From assembly GCA_035934015.1 (NCBI GenBank), contig DASYYH010000020.1, forward strand, positions 62,001-126,000: 64,000 nt of DNA, read 5' to 3'. Below, in pieces: positions 37,531-43,475 of this stretch (within the stretch, counting starts at the first letter, position 1; the number at the start of each line of letters is the position of its first letter). The notes beneath the pieces were generated by a model. That model saw only the letters and a program-made list of their open reading frames with translations, searched no databases and was not told where the DNA came from. Origin of the DNA: Candidatus Acidiferrales bacterium (GTDB taxonomy: Bacteria; Acidobacteriota; Terriglobia; Acidiferrales; UBA7541). The position numbers were made by a program, and so were the translations under genes.

Positions 37531-39741
37531 CTATTTGCCGCCCCAGGTGTATTTGACGCCGGCGCGATAGTTGAGACCAAGCGCGGGATAGCCAACGGCG
37601 TATTGATATTTGCGGTCGAGGAGATTTTCGACATGGGCCATGGCCGTGATGCCGTGCCAGAGCGGGAATTGCGTTCCCATGTCGAGGCGGAAGTAGCCGG
37701 GATTGCTCGTGAAGCCGAGGCCGAGAAAATCGCTGTCGGTTTCGCGGCCGACGAAATATCCGGCAACGTTCCAATCCATGTGACGAATTGTCGCGTTCAA
37801 GATCAGGTCAGCGGAATTCAACGGACGGAGAAACAAGCGATTTCCGGGCGTGAGCGTTGGATCGAAGGCATTCGGCGCTTTGAGAACGCGCGTGTCGTCG
37901 TACGAGTAATTGCCGATGATAGCGAGCCACGCGAAGGGCCGGGCTTCGATCGTCGTGTTGACTCCGAAGGCGCGAGACAAATCCGTATTGAAGAATTCGC
38001 CGTAGCCGACGGCGTTGAGCTCCGCCGAGGGACATCCCGGCGGCACGGGCAGCGCGCACGGGCCAAACGACGGCGGCGGACACGATGCGAAGCTGACGAT
38101 ATCGCTATAGGTATTGTGAAAAAACGTCGCGGAGAATCTCACGCGATCCTGCGCGACGGCCTGATCCACACCGGCGTTGAACGTGTTGCTGCGCTCGGGA
38201 CTGAGATTCGGATTTCCGGGAAAACAAGGATCGGCTTCAAAAGATTGCACGAAGTCCGGCTCCTTAATGCCGAGGCCGTAGGAAGTGCGCAGCTTCGTCT
38301 CGCCCCAGAAATCGCTGCCGACGCGCGCGAGATAGGCAAGGCCAAGGCGCGGGACGACGCGCGTGCCAAAATCGGCATTGTCCTCGGCGCGGACGCCGGC
38401 GATGCCGGTCAAGCGCGGAAGGAATTCGTAATGCGCTTCGAGATAGCCGCCCTGATTATTGCGGCGCTCGTGCGGCCCGCCCGCGGAACCGTTTTCGACT
38501 TCGTAGTTGTAGCCGAGCGAGACAGCGCCCTTCGGGACGAGATACGTGGACTGTTCGACGAAGCCGGCGCGATTGAATTGGTTGATGTCGGTATAAACAC
38601 CGACGTCGGTGAGGTCATCACGAAAATAGGATTCGGTGCCCGCAAGATGATGCTCCCAGTGCGAGCCGGTGGAAAAATCCCAGCTGAGATTGGCGGCGAA
38701 ATCGTGCAGGCCGGACGACTGGCCGAGGATGGGAGGTTCGAGCAGAGTCTGGCCCGGCTGGCCCGCGTCGCTTGAAGAGCTGCGCAGCGAGAGCCGCAGC
38801 TGATCCGTATTGCTGATTTTGTAGCCGAAATCGCCGGAAAGCGTAGTGTCGCGAAAAGCGTCATTTGGTCCCTGACCGCTGCTATCGAAATACGAAACCG
38901 CCGAGGAATAATCGAACTGACCGAGTTTGCCGCTCAAATCGCCGCTGCCAAGACCGGTGCCGAACGTACCGCCTTCGCCAGTGAGCGTGAGGACAGGAGT
39001 TGTTGTGTCGCCGCGGTGCGTGAAGATTTGCACGACGCCGTCCATTGCGTCAGAGCCAAAGAGTGCGCTCGAAGCGCCATGAACGATTTCGATTTTGTCG
39101 ACGTTGGAGAGATCGAGATTCGACGGGTCGATGTCGCCGCCTGGCTCGTTGATGGGCGTACCATCAACGAAGAACTTGGTGTAGTTCGAGTTTCCGCCGT
39201 CGAGGAAGAATGAAGCGATGCCACCGAGCGCGCCAAGGCGCGCGACGCTGGCTCCCGCGGCGGAAGAAAGCAGGGAGGCGAGCCAAATCGCTTGGCGCTG
39301 TTCGATATCTTCGCGCGTCAGTACGGTCACCGGAGATGCGACGGTGTTTGCCGGCGCAGGCTCGGCCTGAGAAGAGACGACGACTCGCGAAGAGAGCGGC
39401 GCCAATTCCAGGCGCACGTCCCAAGTGCGCTTTTCTCCGGCCGCCAGAGTGAATTCCTTTTCCGCGCTGGCCATTTGCGGAGCAGCGACGCGGATGCGAT
39501 AGCGTCCCGGGGGAAGTTCCACAGAGAATGTTCCGTCCGCGGCGCTTTTGGATTGAATTGCGGCGGCGTTTTCGGCTGTTGAGCGAATGGAAATTCGCGC
39601 GCCGACGATGGCTGCGCCACTGCGGTCTGTGACGCGGCCGAAAATGGTTGCTGTGGATTGTGCGCAGCTGAAATTCGAAAAACCGAGAAACGCTAAAAGA
39701 GAAAAAACGGAAAGGCAAAGGAATCGAACGAAAAGTCTCAT
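37531..39741 (-). CDS. btuB: TonB-dependent outer-membrane receptor, probably for cobalamin
   Basis: 736 aa. Signal peptide (1-28), an N-terminal carboxypeptidase-regulatory-like domain (about 31-115, TIFGRVTDRSGAAIVGARI...PPGRYRIRV), then the plug (about 130-250) with VTVLTREDIEQRQAIWLASLLSSAAG and ALFGSDAMDGVVQIFT. A 22-strand-like barrel follows to a terminal aromatic segment (YRAGVKYTW). A cobalamin riboswitch lies 5' (39842-40030) and btuD is the upstream gene, so cobalamin is the likely ligand. No sequence alone proves specificity. RBS GGAGGA followed by A-rich sequence precedes ATG 39741. Confidence 0.88.
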   Translation of the reverse strand: MRLFVRFLCLSVFSLLAFLGFSNFSCAQSTATIFGRVTDRSGAAIVGARISIRSTAENAAAIQSKSAADGTFSVELPPGRYRIRVAAPQMASAEKEFTLAAGEKRTWDVRLELAPLSSRVVVSSQAEPAPANTVASPVTVLTREDIEQRQAIWLASLLSSAAGASVARLGALGGIASFFLDGGNSNYTKFFVDGTPINEPGGDIDPSNLDLSNVDKIEIVHGASSALFGSDAMDGVVQIFTHRGDTTTPVLTLTGEGGTFGTGLGSGDLSGKLGQFDYSSAVSYFDSSGQGPNDAFRDTTLSGDFGYKISNTDQLRLSLRSSSSDAGQPGQTLLEPPILGQSSGLHDFAANLSWDFSTGSHWEHHLAGTESYFRDDLTDVGVYTDINQFNRAGFVEQSTYLVPKGAVSLGYNYEVENGSAGGPHERRNNQGGYLEAHYEFLPRLTGIAGVRAEDNADFGTRVVPRLGLAYLARVGSDFWGETKLRTSYGLGIKEPDFVQSFEADPCFPGNPNLSPERSNTFNAGVDQAVAQDRVRFSATFFHNTYSDIVSFASCPPPSFGPCALPVPPGCPSAELNAVGYGEFFNTDLSRAFGVNTTIEARPFAWLAIIGNYSYDDTRVLKAPNAFDPTLTPGNRLFLRPLNSADLILNATIRHMDWNVAGYFVGRETDSDFLGLGFTSNPGYFRLDMGTQFPLWHGITAMAHVENLLDRKYQYAVGYPALGLNYRAGVKYTWGGK

Positions 39742-39841
39742 TTTTTTATCCTCCGCTCCCTCTCGCGCGGGAGTGTGAAGGCTGTCCCGAAGTTCGGGCC
39801 GCTCGCGATTTTGCGCGAGCGACGCGGGCTGCGGGATGAGA

Positions 39842-40030
39842 CTCCGCCGGTCTCCTGGCTTGGCGGCGAATTCTGGACGCGGCCTTCCCGCCGCGGTGTC
39901 GCGTCTGGCGACGAAGCACCGAAGCAGTGGCGCGCGTCCGATTATTTCCGCCCTACAGTCGCGCAGCGGCGGCGGCTTTTGACCGCCTTCCCGTGCACGG
40001 AGTCTCGTGTGATTGTCGCCGGCGGGCGCG
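39842..40030 (-). promoter_or_regulatory. Cobalamin (B12) riboswitch upstream of btuB
   Basis: On the minus strand the core blocks occur in the canonical order. These are CACGGGAAGGCGGTCAAAAG (the GGGAA...GGTnnAA region), then GCGCGACTGTAGGGCGG (the B12-box GCnACTGT), and finally AAGCCAGGAGACCGGC. Downstream, before the btuB start, lie two clear hairpins: CGCTCGCG/CGCGAGCG (about 39795-39816) and a CTCCC/GGGAG stem adjoining the GGAGGA ribosome-binding site. No U-run follows, so control of translation initiation is the more probable mechanism. It is located within the btu operon, after btuD. Confidence 0.85.
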
Positions 40031-40119
40031 GCAGGCCGCGAAGTGAGTTCACTTTCGGCTCGCCGTTTCCTACCGGTAAAACGCTGCTGGCCGCAAACTG
40101 CTACAAACTCTTCCCGCCA

Positions 40120-41043
40120 TCAATTCTTGGGCGCGGAATCGGAACTCGTGCCTGCCACTTCGTCCATGATTTCGGGAGCGTCCACGCCACCGCGTAAAAT
40201 CACGCGCGGGCGGCCGCTGGGCGCGCGGTCGACGTCTAAAGGCGTCTCGAAAACCTGCTCGAGCAGTTCGCGGCGATAGACATCCGCCGGCTTTCCCGCG
40301 GCGACGCACTTGCCGCGCTGCATGAGGACGATTAGATCGAAGAATTCCGCGGCGAGATTCAATTCGTGAGTGACGACGATCACCGTGTAGCGGCTCTGCT
40401 CGGAAAGCTCCTGCAGGCGGCGCATCAATTCGACTTTTCCGCCGATGTCCAGATTGCGCGTGGGCTCATCGAGGAGCAAGAGCAGCGGCTGCTGGGCGAG
40501 AGCGCGCGCGAGAATGACGCGCTGGCGTTCGCCGCCGGAAAGACGATCCATGCGGCGGTCGATGAGCAGTTTAGCGCCGACTTGCGCAAGGGCGTTTTCA
40601 GCCAGAAGGCAATCGGCTTCACCTTCGAAACGCAGACGATGGCCATAGGGATAACGGCCTTGCATGACGTATTCCCAAACGTACATGGGAAAGAGCAGCG
40701 AGCTTTCCTGATGAACGAGAGCTACGCGCTGGGCGCGCTCGCGGAGGCTCAACTGACTGGGTGGCGTGCCATCGAGCTCGACGCGGCCGGAGAGAGCCTT
40801 GGATTCGCCGGAAAGCAGGCGCAGCAAAGTGGATTTACCGCTGGCGTTGGGGCCGAGGACGGCGACCAATTCTCGCTGGCGCGCGCTGAAGGTCACGGGG
40901 CCGAGGGTGAATTCCGGCGCTTCGCGGCCTGCGGCGGCATAGGCGAAACTGGCCTGCTCGACGAGCAGGCGCACGGGATTCTGCATATAACCGGCGGCGA
41001 CGGTTTGACCGGCGGGGGGCATGGGCTGGCCCTGCGCGCTCAT
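40120..41043 (-). CDS. btuD: ABC transporter ATP-binding protein (cobalamin/iron-siderophore type)
   Basis: 307 aa. Walker A GPNASGKST, Q-loop LVHQESSLLFPM, signature LSGGERQR and Walker B LLLLLDEP with the D-loop N-L-D; H-loop VTHELNLAAEF. This is the FecE/BtuD subfamily. The start codon overlaps the btuC stop (ATGA). It powers cobalamin import together with the btuC permease and btuF binding protein, cobalamin being delivered from the receptor btuB. Some 60-90 residues at the C-terminus beyond the ATPase core are extra and of unknown role. Confidence 0.94.
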   Translation of the reverse strand: MSAQGQPMPPAGQTVAAGYMQNPVRLLVEQASFAYAAAGREAPEFTLGPVTFSARQRELVAVLGPNASGKSTLLRLLSGESKALSGRVELDGTPPSQLSLRERAQRVALVHQESSLLFPMYVWEYVMQGRYPYGHRLRFEGEADCLLAENALAQVGAKLLIDRRMDRLSGGERQRVILARALAQQPLLLLLDEPTRNLDIGGKVELMRRLQELSEQSRYTVIVVTHELNLAAEFFDLIVLMQRGKCVAAGKPADVYRRELLEQVFETPLDVDRAPSGRPRVILRGGVDAPEIMDEVAGTSSDSAPKN

Positions 41044-42056
41044 GCCAGCCTCCGTTTGAGCAGATAGATGAATACCGGCGCGCCGATGGCGGCGGTCATG
41101 GCCCCGACGGGAAGCTCGGTGGGCGCGACGATGGTGCGCGCAAGCGTGTCGGCGAGTGCGACGGCAATTGCGCCGCCGAGCGCGGACGCAGGAATCAGAA
41201 GACGATGATCGGAGCCGAAAATCATGCGAATTACGTGCGGCACGAGCAGGCCGACGTAGCCGATTGCGCCGCTGACGGAAACAGCGAGGCCGGTCAGGAG
41301 TGATGCGCCGACGTATACGACGAGTTTGACGCGGGCGACGTTGACGCCGAGGTGATGCGCTTCCTGCTCACCGGTGAGAATCAGATTCAGATCGGAAGAA
41401 GTTGTGTAAATCGCGCCGATGGCAATCAGGAGGATGGGATAGAGATAGCGCAGCTCGATTTCGGGCGGACTCGAGAGGTCGCCCATGAGCCAGAAGGCCA
41501 TGCCGCGCAGTTCGCGACCGCTGATGGTGGTCATCAGGAACATAATGACGGCGGAAAGAAACGAAGCGGTGATGATTCCGGCAAGGAGAAGCGTGGTGCT
41601 GTCGAGCTGGCCACCGCGACGGCCGAGAAAATAGACTGCGGCGATGGTCACGAGCGCGCCGAGAAACGCGAACGCTTGCATCGTCCAGACCTGATGGGGG
41701 AACCAGGCCAGCGAGATAATCGCGCCGAGCGCTGCGCCGCTTGAAACACCCAGCACATAGGGATCGGCGAGCGGATTGCGCAGCAAAGCTTGAAATGAGC
41801 CGCCGGAAACCGAGAGCGCCGCACCGACGAGAATTCCCAGAGCGATGCGCGGCAGGCGAATCTGGAAGATGACGTTGGAATAATCGGGCGGAATGTTGTC
41901 CCAGTGATGAATCGCGCCGCGCAGAAGCGTCATGGCAATATCCGTGACGCTGATGGGATAGGCGCCGACGCGCAGCGAGACGACAACAACGGCGAACAAA
42001 ATTGCGCCGAGGCCGGCGCAAATGAGGGCGATGCGGCGCGGCGTCAGCGGGCGCAC
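41040..42056 (-). CDS. btuC: FecCD-family permease (BtuC-like)
   Basis: 338 aa with about ten membrane helices. Conserved FecCD features include RLPRIALGILVGAALSVSGGSFQALLRNPLADPYVLGVSSGAALG, and the coupling segment GAIGYVGLLVPHVIRMIFGSDHR (about 256-278). Starts at a GTG (42056) that overlaps the 3' end of btuF by 13 bases; its stop overlaps the start of btuD. This is a continuous F-C-D operon. It forms the inner-membrane channel, probably for cobalamin by riboswitch context. Confidence 0.95.
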   Translation of the reverse strand: MRPLTPRRIALICAGLGAILFAVVVVSLRVGAYPISVTDIAMTLLRGAIHHWDNIPPDYSNVIFQIRLPRIALGILVGAALSVSGGSFQALLRNPLADPYVLGVSSGAALGAIISLAWFPHQVWTMQAFAFLGALVTIAAVYFLGRRGGQLDSTTLLLAGIITASFLSAVIMFLMTTISGRELRGMAFWLMGDLSSPPEIELRYLYPILLIAIGAIYTTSSDLNLILTGEQEAHHLGVNVARVKLVVYVGASLLTGLAVSVSGAIGYVGLLVPHVIRMIFGSDHRLLIPASALGGAIAVALADTLARTIVAPTELPVGAMTAAIGAPVFIYLLKRRLA

Positions 42057-43195
42057 GAGCGTTCCTCCGATCCTGGCTGCTGACGCAAGGAAACCCAGAG
42101 GCGCGATGCTGAGTGCTCTTCGCTCGCGTTTGGCTCCGCGGGCTGTTTCGGCGTGAAGGCTTCGGGATGCAGCTCTTGCGCCAGTTGTTCGATAGCGCCA
42201 ACAAGTCCCGGCGCAGGAAGATTCACTTCGTCGCTGATGACGGCGACGTGACCATCGCGCACGGCGGGCAAATCGCGCCAGCCGGGTTCGCCGCGAAGCT
42301 CGGTGAGATGCCGCGCAATGGCGGCACTAATGTCCAGCGATGCGGGCGAATCATTGCCAGCGTCTTCGCCCATTTGATTCTCCGCGTAAATGATGTAACC
42401 GGGGTTGAGCTTTACGATTTCCTCCATGCCGACTAGTGGCCAATTTTGTTTGGTATGAATCACGGATTCCGCTCCAGCCCAACGTAAGGCGTCGGCGATA
42501 AATGTGTTTTCGCCGATGGACTGCAGCGGCTGATCCCACACGACGAACAAGACACGCGTGGGCGCGACTCCGGCGAGCTTTGCTTTCAAAGCATCGAGCT
42601 GCTGCTGCAATTTCGCAACGAGAGTTTCCGCTTGTGTCTGCGCGCCAATCACACCGCCAATGTGACGGATGGAATCGAGGGTTCCTTCGACGGTGTGCGG
42701 ATCCGTTGCATAGACAGCAATGCCCGCCTGCTCGAGAGCGTTGACGGTTTCCAGGCGATTGATTGCCGAGGTTACCAGCACAACGTCAGGTTGAGCGCCG
42801 GCGATGGCCTCGAGGCTGGGATTCACGGGCATCCCGACGCTGGGCTTGGTCTTCGCGTCAGGCGGATAGTCGGTGAACGCGGAGACGCCGGCGAGGCGAT
42901 CCTGGGCACCGAGCGCGTAGACAATTTCGGTGAGGTTGGGCGCGAGAGAAACGATGCGGCGGACGTCATTTGGAATGATGACGTGACGGCCGACTTCATC
43001 AACGACTTCGCGCGTCATTTTTTTGGCAGGCACAGCGACTGGCGCAGAGGTTTGCTCCGAGACAGCAGCTTGCAGCATCGTGCTGCACACACCCGCGTTT
43101 GTTCGGGCGCCAGAGCAACATGCGAGCGCAGCGACGCCGCATGCTGCGGCGAGTCTTCGCCGGAACTGCTCCAGGCTTTTCGGCACGCCCGTCAT
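42044..43195 (-). CDS. btuF: Periplasmic cobalamin-binding protein
   Basis: 383 aa from ATG 43195 (an in-frame TTG at 43213 is an alternative). A signal sequence lies in residues 10-40. The binding fold follows: RRIVSLAPNLTEIVYALGAQDRLAGVSAFTDYPPDAK, QPDVVLVTSAINRLETVNALEQAGIAVYATDP, ending DEVNLPAPGLVGAIEQLAQELHPEAF. This is the class III (BtuF/FhuD-like) solute-binding protein with one long connecting helix. The 5' leader carries a B12 riboswitch with a terminator, so the whole operon responds to cobalamin. A 40-residue basic tail is unusual. Confidence 0.93.
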   Translation of the reverse strand: MTGVPKSLEQFRRRLAAACGVAALACCSGARTNAGVCSTMLQAAVSEQTSAPVAVPAKKMTREVVDEVGRHVIIPNDVRRIVSLAPNLTEIVYALGAQDRLAGVSAFTDYPPDAKTKPSVGMPVNPSLEAIAGAQPDVVLVTSAINRLETVNALEQAGIAVYATDPHTVEGTLDSIRHIGGVIGAQTQAETLVAKLQQQLDALKAKLAGVAPTRVLFVVWDQPLQSIGENTFIADALRWAGAESVIHTKQNWPLVGMEEIVKLNPGYIIYAENQMGEDAGNDSPASLDISAAIARHLTELRGEPGWRDLPAVRDGHVAVISDEVNLPAPGLVGAIEQLAQELHPEAFTPKQPAEPNASEEHSASRLWVSLRQQPGSEERSCAR

Positions 43196-43210
43196 TTGGA
43201 ATTCATCCGC

Positions 43211-43245
43211 CAAAAATAAAAAAGCCCCACGAGATACCGTGGGGC
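43211..43245 (-). terminator. Intrinsic terminator in the btuF leader
   Basis: On the minus strand a perfect hairpin GCCCCACG-gtatct-CGTGGGGC is directly followed by a T-run (TTTTTT, then ATTTTT). It lies between the cobalamin riboswitch and the btuF start, which is the expected arrangement of a transcription-attenuation platform: cobalamin binding would favour termination. Confidence 0.9.
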
Positions 43246-43285
43246 GCTTCGGCGCTCTTTCTCGCGAAGAGCGTCGGCTCTAGCG

Positions 43286-43425
43286 GCTCGCGCAAGTTCC
43301 TGACTTTCGGCGATTCAAGCTGGTAAGTCGCCGATCACAGTGGCGGGACCGTGGCCGATTTACACAGCCTTCCTTTTGGTGCGTCCCGCGAGCCGGCTAA
43401 ATTTTTCGTTTCCGAGTCTATGCGC
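43286..43425 (-). promoter_or_regulatory. Cobalamin (B12) riboswitch upstream of btuF
   Basis: The core blocks occur in order on the minus strand: GACGCACCAAAAGGAAGG, GTGTAAATCGGCC, CGGTCCCGCCACTGTGA (B12 box CnGCnACTGTGA) and AAAGTCAGGAACTTGC. They match the cobalamin riboswitch consensus better than the copy before btuB. The terminator at 43211-43245 follows. It controls the btuFCD operon. Confidence 0.9.
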
Positions 43426-43475
43426 AAGCGCGCGGCGAGTCAAATGCGTTTGCCGATGCGGCCCCCCGCTGGGCC

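Follow-up and report, generated by a model that had tools for sequence, protein, structure and literature searches.

Two cobalamin riboswitches with different predicted expression platforms in a conserved btu operon of Candidatus Acidiferrales

Why should a single operon for vitamin B12 uptake carry two riboswitches of the same family, and do the two govern the same step? The question is raised by a 64,000-nucleotide (nt) stretch of a soil bacterium, Candidatus Acidiferrales bacterium (GCA_035934015.1, contig DASYYH010000020.1, positions 62,001-126,000 of the forward strand; GTDB lineage Bacteria; Acidobacteriota; Terriglobia; Acidiferrales; UBA7541), hereafter the window, whose positions serve as coordinates throughout and whose own genome is labeled G000. 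Its minus strand bears a btu operon of the order RS1-btuF-btuC-btuD-RS2-btuB, in which RS1 and RS2 denote the upstream and downstream cobalamin riboswitches. Sequence features and their conservation in dozens of relatives uphold the view, already advanced in a preliminary description of this DNA, that the two riboswitches have different expression platforms, with RS1 predicted to act by transcription termination and RS2 by sequestration of the btuB Shine-Dalgarno sequence. We consider it quite probable that these platforms are arranged in series, such that btuB would be controlled twice.

The two aptamers and their operon

The preliminary description had named two cobalamin riboswitches and proposed an Infernal scan as a check; a cmscan search with the Rfam Cobalamin model RF00174 recovered both above its gathering score of 31.5 bits:

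43274-43406, minus strand: RS1 cobalamin riboswitch aptamer, a short form without the P8-P12 extension (RF00174, 42.6 bits, E 2.2e-7)
39828-40017, minus strand: RS2 cobalamin riboswitch aptamer, a long form with the P8-P12 region (RF00174, 70.7 bits, E 2e-15)

These are the only matches to the model in the entire 3.37-Mb assembly, which is 98.6% complete. They lie 3.3 kb apart with three genes in between, and all genes of the operon are on the minus strand:

42044-43195, minus strand: btuF-like periplasmic substrate-binding protein (PF01497, 133 bits; PRK03379 BtuF, 86.5 bits, below its cut-off)
41040-42056, minus strand: btuC-like FecCD permease (PF01032, 312 bits; best NCBIfam match BtuC, below its cut-off)
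40120-41043, minus strand: btuD-like ABC ATPase (PF00005, 105.5 bits)
37531-39741, minus strand: btuB-like TonB-dependent receptor (PF00593 and PF07715, with PF13620 as an N-terminal CarboxypepD_reg domain; best NCBIfam match TonB-B12, TIGR01779, 168 bits, below its cut-off)

The btu names are based on the NCBIfam matches to BtuF, BtuC and TonB-B12, all below the curated cut-offs, taken together with the riboswitches. The open reading frames (ORFs) of btuF and btuC overlap by 13 nt and those of btuC and btuD by 4 nt; the longest ORF of btuF begins with a TTG at 43213, inside the T-tail of the terminator described below, and the ATG at 43195 is the likelier start.

In a survey of the family, 85 of 89 genomes yielded at least one cobalamin riboswitch match, and most yielded two. 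Our comparison set consists of 47 genomes, among them that of the window, whose two riboswitches share a contig and stand on either side of btuFCD. Searches with the window proteins using tblastn showed that in every one of the 47 the riboswitches enclose btuF, btuC and btuD. RS2 is followed by btuB in 45; the two exceptions are G064, where it was undetected, and G080, where the sequence ends at RS2. The same layout in 11 further genomes brings the count to 58 family genomes from 10 genera, and it also occurs in G089 and G090, which represent two other families of the order, and in G099, a distant relative within the phylum. Most genomes in an even sample of 60 from the phylum have a single cobalamin riboswitch, and when 84,980 species genomes were searched for exact matches to the RS2 hairpin, 54 loci came back, 53 of them titled Acidobacteria, Candidatus Acidiferrales, Terriglobia or similar. 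Given this spread among relatives, we regard the layout as a long-standing feature that the order Candidatus Acidiferrales has retained. The RS2 motif is found in L148 (CAJCHZ010000052.1), which is titled Betaproteobacteria, probably through mislabeling.

Other arrangements came to light alongside. Three loci of genus g10 (L065, L066 and L067, from G058-G060) were left out of the comparison set because btuFCD is not enclosed by their riboswitches: each has a pair of strong cobalamin riboswitches at a spacing of about 4.9 kb with no btuFCD in between, and one of the pair precedes a distant btuB-like receptor. Closely spaced pairs of long-form riboswitches, unlike the btu operon layout, are seen in L072 (501-672 and 889-1075, about 220 nt apart, in G070) and L084 (601-766 and 1496-1667, about 730 nt apart, in G008). 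Seven matches to the cobalamin riboswitch, several of them in close tandem pairs, were obtained in G115, a relative within the phylum (L111, 506-868). In G065 (L105, 838-2905), btuC matches fall in two overlapping frames and btuF is without its middle, pointing either to a frameshift and a deletion or to an assembly error.

Predicted transcription termination at RS1

The RS1 leader contains the following elements:

43343-43348, minus strand: L5 of RS1, UCCCGC, predicted kissing partner of L13
43254-43272, minus strand: P13 hairpin of RS1, GCUCUU-CGCGAGA-AAGAGC, with the loop L13, CGCGAGA, at 43266-43260
43212-43245, minus strand: RS1 intrinsic terminator, with its stem at 43245-43224 and a 12-nt U-rich tail at 43223-43212
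43260-43269, minus strand: predicted antiterminator 5' strand, CUUCGCGAGA, comprising P13 5' arm and L13
43225-43234, minus strand: predicted antiterminator 3' strand, UCUCGUGGGG, comprising terminator loop and 3' arm

An intrinsic terminator between RS1 and btuF had been recognized earlier, and it is borne out here. It reads GCCCCACGG-TATC-TCGTGGGGC, with nine pairs of which seven are G-C, followed by TTTTTTATTTTT, and a terminator with a G-rich arm and a U-run is present in each of the 50 RS1 loci whose sequences were read. A strict terminator scan recovered it at 31 of 47 RS1 loci as against 0 of 47 RS2 loci; the 16 RS1 terminators missed by the scan have longer loops or interrupted stems and were found on reading the sequences. 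All 50 loci also possess a P13-like hairpin with a near-invariant L13, and L5 is invariably UCCCGC across the relatives wherever the core was matched, in agreement with the published L5 consensus UCCCG (PMC10653944). By sequence, it is complementary to GCGAGA of L13 in five of six pairs. The sequence UGUAAAU had been considered as L5 of RS1 and was rejected, being the P4 loop and giving no partner; the assignment to the UCCCG loop follows PMC10653944.

The predicted antiterminator comprises 10 pairs, and across 48 loci 465 of the 480 pair cells (97%) are formed in register, compared with 30-69% in registers slid by one to three positions. In 45 loci, the duplex with the locus's own terminator has an energy of -12.6 kcal/mol as against -7.2 kcal/mol with shuffled terminators. 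The UCUC of the terminator loop is conserved while the neighboring loop bases vary, and the terminator stem can form without it; the simplest reason for its conservation is complementarity in the antiterminator. This pairing is also retained in G043 despite a two-base insertion. The best fold has a median energy of -24.3 kcal/mol and the antiterminator one of -21.2 kcal/mol. In 30 of 48 loci, the antiterminator trails the best fold by no more than 1 kcal/mol at the moment when RNA polymerase has transcribed just as far as UCUCGUG. Taken together, the G+C-rich hairpin, the U-run and the competing predicted antiterminator support a transcriptional platform for RS1.

Two other readings of this leader need to be weighed. 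L13 GAGA and the terminator-loop UCUC would both be accessible in an RNA that holds P13 and the terminator at once, and they might kiss loop-to-loop to aid termination, with no antiterminator being formed. We hold this to be distinctly unlikely, as the complementarity spans 10 pairs and extends through the terminator 3' arm and the P13 5' arm, all of which would be superfluous for a loop-loop kiss. One might also take RS1 for a decayed aptamer and its terminator for a constitutive attenuator, with the B12 response left to RS2; the lower score of RS1 and its J6/3, which is one base short in G000, lean that way. Yet the L5 UCCCGC, the core GGAA/ACUGU, P13, L13 and the terminator are all kept across 10 genera, which decay would not preserve, and we consider this reading highly improbable.

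Predicted translational control at RS2 and probable serial output

The elements around the btuB start are:

39961-39966, minus strand: L5 of RS2, CUGCGC, predicted to kiss L13 GCGCG
39750-39781, minus strand: extended P13 hairpin of RS2, with outer helix CCUUC/GGAGG, inner helix CUCCC/GGGAG and L13 GCGCGAGA at 39768-39761
39749-39754, minus strand: btuB Shine-Dalgarno sequence GGAGGA, with the btuB ATG at 39741

A CTCCC/GGGAG hairpin beside the btuB ribosome-binding site, with no terminator, had been described before. Both parts stand, in that CTCCC-GCGCGAGA-GGGAG at 39773-39756 lies directly 5' of the Shine-Dalgarno sequence and the scan returned no terminator-like site between btuD and btuB. 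However, the Shine-Dalgarno sequence is covered not by this inner helix but by the outer one, formed by CCTTC (39781-39777) and GGAGG (39754-39750). It is paired, wholly or mostly, in 46 of 46 predicted RS2 folds. Across 42 distinct sequences, pairing reaches 96% in the inner helix and 87% in the outer, as against 54-78% in slid registers, and two-sided changes occur in both helices, e.g. CUUUC/GAAAG in G042 and CUUUUUU/AAAGGAG in G045. L5 is GCGC-centered in all 46 RS2 loci read, with CUGCGC as the form of genus g1 and CCGCGC as that of most others, and either form is complementary by sequence to GCGCG; the L5 and L13 sequences are unlike between RS1 and RS2, yet complementary within each riboswitch. 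A translational platform for RS2 is hence supported, with the Shine-Dalgarno sequence held in a hairpin and no terminator. For the ON state, the P1 3' strand and the GGGAAGG core were considered as possible sources of an anti-anti-Shine-Dalgarno strand, and nothing sufficiently conserved was found.

How the two platforms combine depends on the promoters. Upstream of RS1 lies the following element:

43415-43443, minus strand: predicted operon promoter, TTGACT (43443-43438), 17-nt spacer, TAGACT (43420-43415), 9 of 12 consensus positions

A TTGACA-N17/18-TANACT-like site with at least 9 of 12 consensus positions precedes RS1 in 40 of 47 genomes, whereas the 300 bases before RS2 have such a site in none of the 47. 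The distance from the btuD stop to RS2 has a median of 87 nt, with 102 nt in the window and 330-397 nt in a few relatives. As promoter-like sites are seen before RS1 and none before RS2, btuB is most likely transcribed only on mRNA that has read through RS1; one transcript with btuB downstream of both switches is the likeliest arrangement. The gap behind btuD does leave room for a promoter, more so in the relatives with the longest gaps, and one of another sigma type would lie outside our scan. Accordingly, one could imagine two independent units, in which RS1 governs btuFCD, and btuB is transcribed from a promoter of its own located between btuD and RS2. This is unlikely in light of the asymmetry in promoter-like sites, the short median gap and the lack of a terminator between btuD and RS2 in the window. 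The preliminary description had proposed separate translational control of the receptor: the translational platform holds, but as btuB lies behind both riboswitches its control would be serial rather than separate.

The model that we favor is as follows. One promoter would drive btuFCD-btuB, and both riboswitches would turn expression off upon binding their ligand. In the presence of intracellular coenzyme B12, L5 of RS1 would dock on L13 and hold P13, allowing the terminator to form and halt RNA polymerase ahead of btuF. In its absence, L13 and the P13 5' arm would instead pair with the terminator loop and 3' arm as an antiterminator, and the operon would be read. RS2 would act on the translation of btuB alone, its L5-L13 kiss holding the extended P13 in the presence of B12 such that the outer helix buries the Shine-Dalgarno sequence. 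The inner-membrane importer would thereby be controlled once and btuB twice in series.

Several observations weigh against this model. The RS1 kissing pair contains one C-A mismatch, and L13 of RS1 hardly varies; therefore, most of the support for the antiterminator is conserved complementarity, with true covariation being scarce. For genus g6, G089 (family f2) and the distant G099, shuffled terminators give a duplex that is at least as good. In G000, the antiterminator is the weaker structure by 10 kcal/mol when set against P13 plus the terminator, and antitermination there would consequently need to operate kinetically. Taken by themselves, the two platform stretches have modest folding z-scores (-1.8 and -1.9). 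The RS2 hairpin is stable without ligand (-15 kcal/mol), and inspection by eye alone found no conserved alternative pairing that would free the Shine-Dalgarno sequence. Finally, the hosts are known mostly as metagenome-assembled genomes.

Ligand preference, known systems and neighboring genes

The aptamers also differ in class features. J6/3 is GAG in 43 of 47 RS2 as against 1 of 47 RS1, the latter mostly having GCC, GCU, GAA or GAC. RS2 displays the features of class I, the adenosylcobalamin (AdoCbl) class: it aligns over CCACUG...CGGGAAGG (P8-P12) and its J6/3 reads AGCCAGGAGACC. RS1 of the window does not, as the P8-P12 positions are skipped and its J6/3 region reads AGUCAGG-AACUU. Class IIb is defined by the absence of P8-P12, GGAA at J3/4 and UCU at J6/3 (PMC11260477); RS1 fits in lacking P8-P12 and in having GGAA but departs from it at J6/3.

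Owing to these differences at J6/3 and P8-P12, RS1 and RS2 may read different corrinoid forms, and few binding-site residues suffice to switch specificity between methylcobalamin and AdoCbl (PMC9600662). We tentatively entertain, as a possibility that we would not favor, a two-signal gate in which RS2 is a class I switch for AdoCbl and RS1 prefers another form, e.g. a non-adenosylated or non-cobalamin corrinoid; this would be compatible with serial control. If it were so, the importer and the receptor would be set by different states of the imported corrinoid pool. Within the window the P8-P12 region is indeed present only in RS2, but some RS1 of the family are longer and apparently have the extension, such that the loss looks lineage-specific. 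The RS1 J6/3 is also unlike the UCU motif of class IIb, and AdoCbl should be available in all the genomes checked: a cobalamin adenosyltransferase is present in 50 of 50 (BtuR type in 48, PduO type in two), by which AdoCbl can be made from imported B12. As CbiC was found in none of these 50 family genomes and CobS is also absent from the window genome, B12 is probably obtained through import alone. Among the proteins of the window genome are some with B12-binding domains.

Bacillus subtilis is without an outer membrane and is not known to have a second riboswitch for an outer-membrane receptor, which sets it apart from the Acidiferrales operon. Its own importer operon also begins with a cobalamin riboswitch, placed ahead of btuF (PMC9600662). 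Each of the individual parts (the aptamers, the kissing loop, the terminator and the sequestration of the Shine-Dalgarno sequence) is of a known kind, and the kissing-loop logic has been published for other corrinoid riboswitches (PMC10653944). In the class I, translational btuB riboswitch of Escherichia coli, the aptamer also precedes btuB and a kiss-stabilized P13 promotes a hairpin hiding the ribosome-binding site (PMC10653944), whereas RS2 lies inside an operon behind btuD, its P13 itself bears the anti-Shine-Dalgarno arm, and a second, transcriptional riboswitch, RS1, lies upstream. The transcriptional OFF switch of Priestia megaterium metE resembles RS1 in that the L5-L13 kiss stabilizes P13 and leads to a terminator, with an antiterminator forming otherwise (PMC10653944); RS1 differs in the predicted pairing of L13 and the P13 5' side with the terminator loop and 3' side. 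Tandem or contiguous riboswitches (e.g. tandem AdoCbl and thiamine pyrophosphate (TPP) riboswitches; SAM-I (S-adenosylmethionine)/AdoCbl) similarly place more than one riboswitch with independent platforms on a transcript to give a combined output, and different control levels are expected to make such control more efficient (PMC9481103, PMC12452182). Those share one leader or intergenic region, whereas RS1 and RS2 are three genes apart and the last gene alone sees both. The metE and ppe2 B12 riboswitches of Mycobacterium tuberculosis likewise share a genome while differing in class (PMC11260477), but they lie in different loci and are both translational OFF switches. We found no description of such an intra-operon split, or of its conservation, in the open-licence papers that we searched.

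This operon would hence be a natural, order-wide case of two riboswitches of one family dividing an operon between termination and translation, with the last gene controlled twice. A suggested reason is that a bacterium reliant on imported B12 limits its receptor more tightly than its importer. The two compact leaders with their conserved P13 are suited to measuring serial control and the predicted dual role of L13 as kissing loop and antiterminator strand.

Downstream of btuB, the segment 36761-37388 encodes a membrane protein weakly resembling DUF3180, followed by an overlapping gene for a helix-turn-helix regulator.

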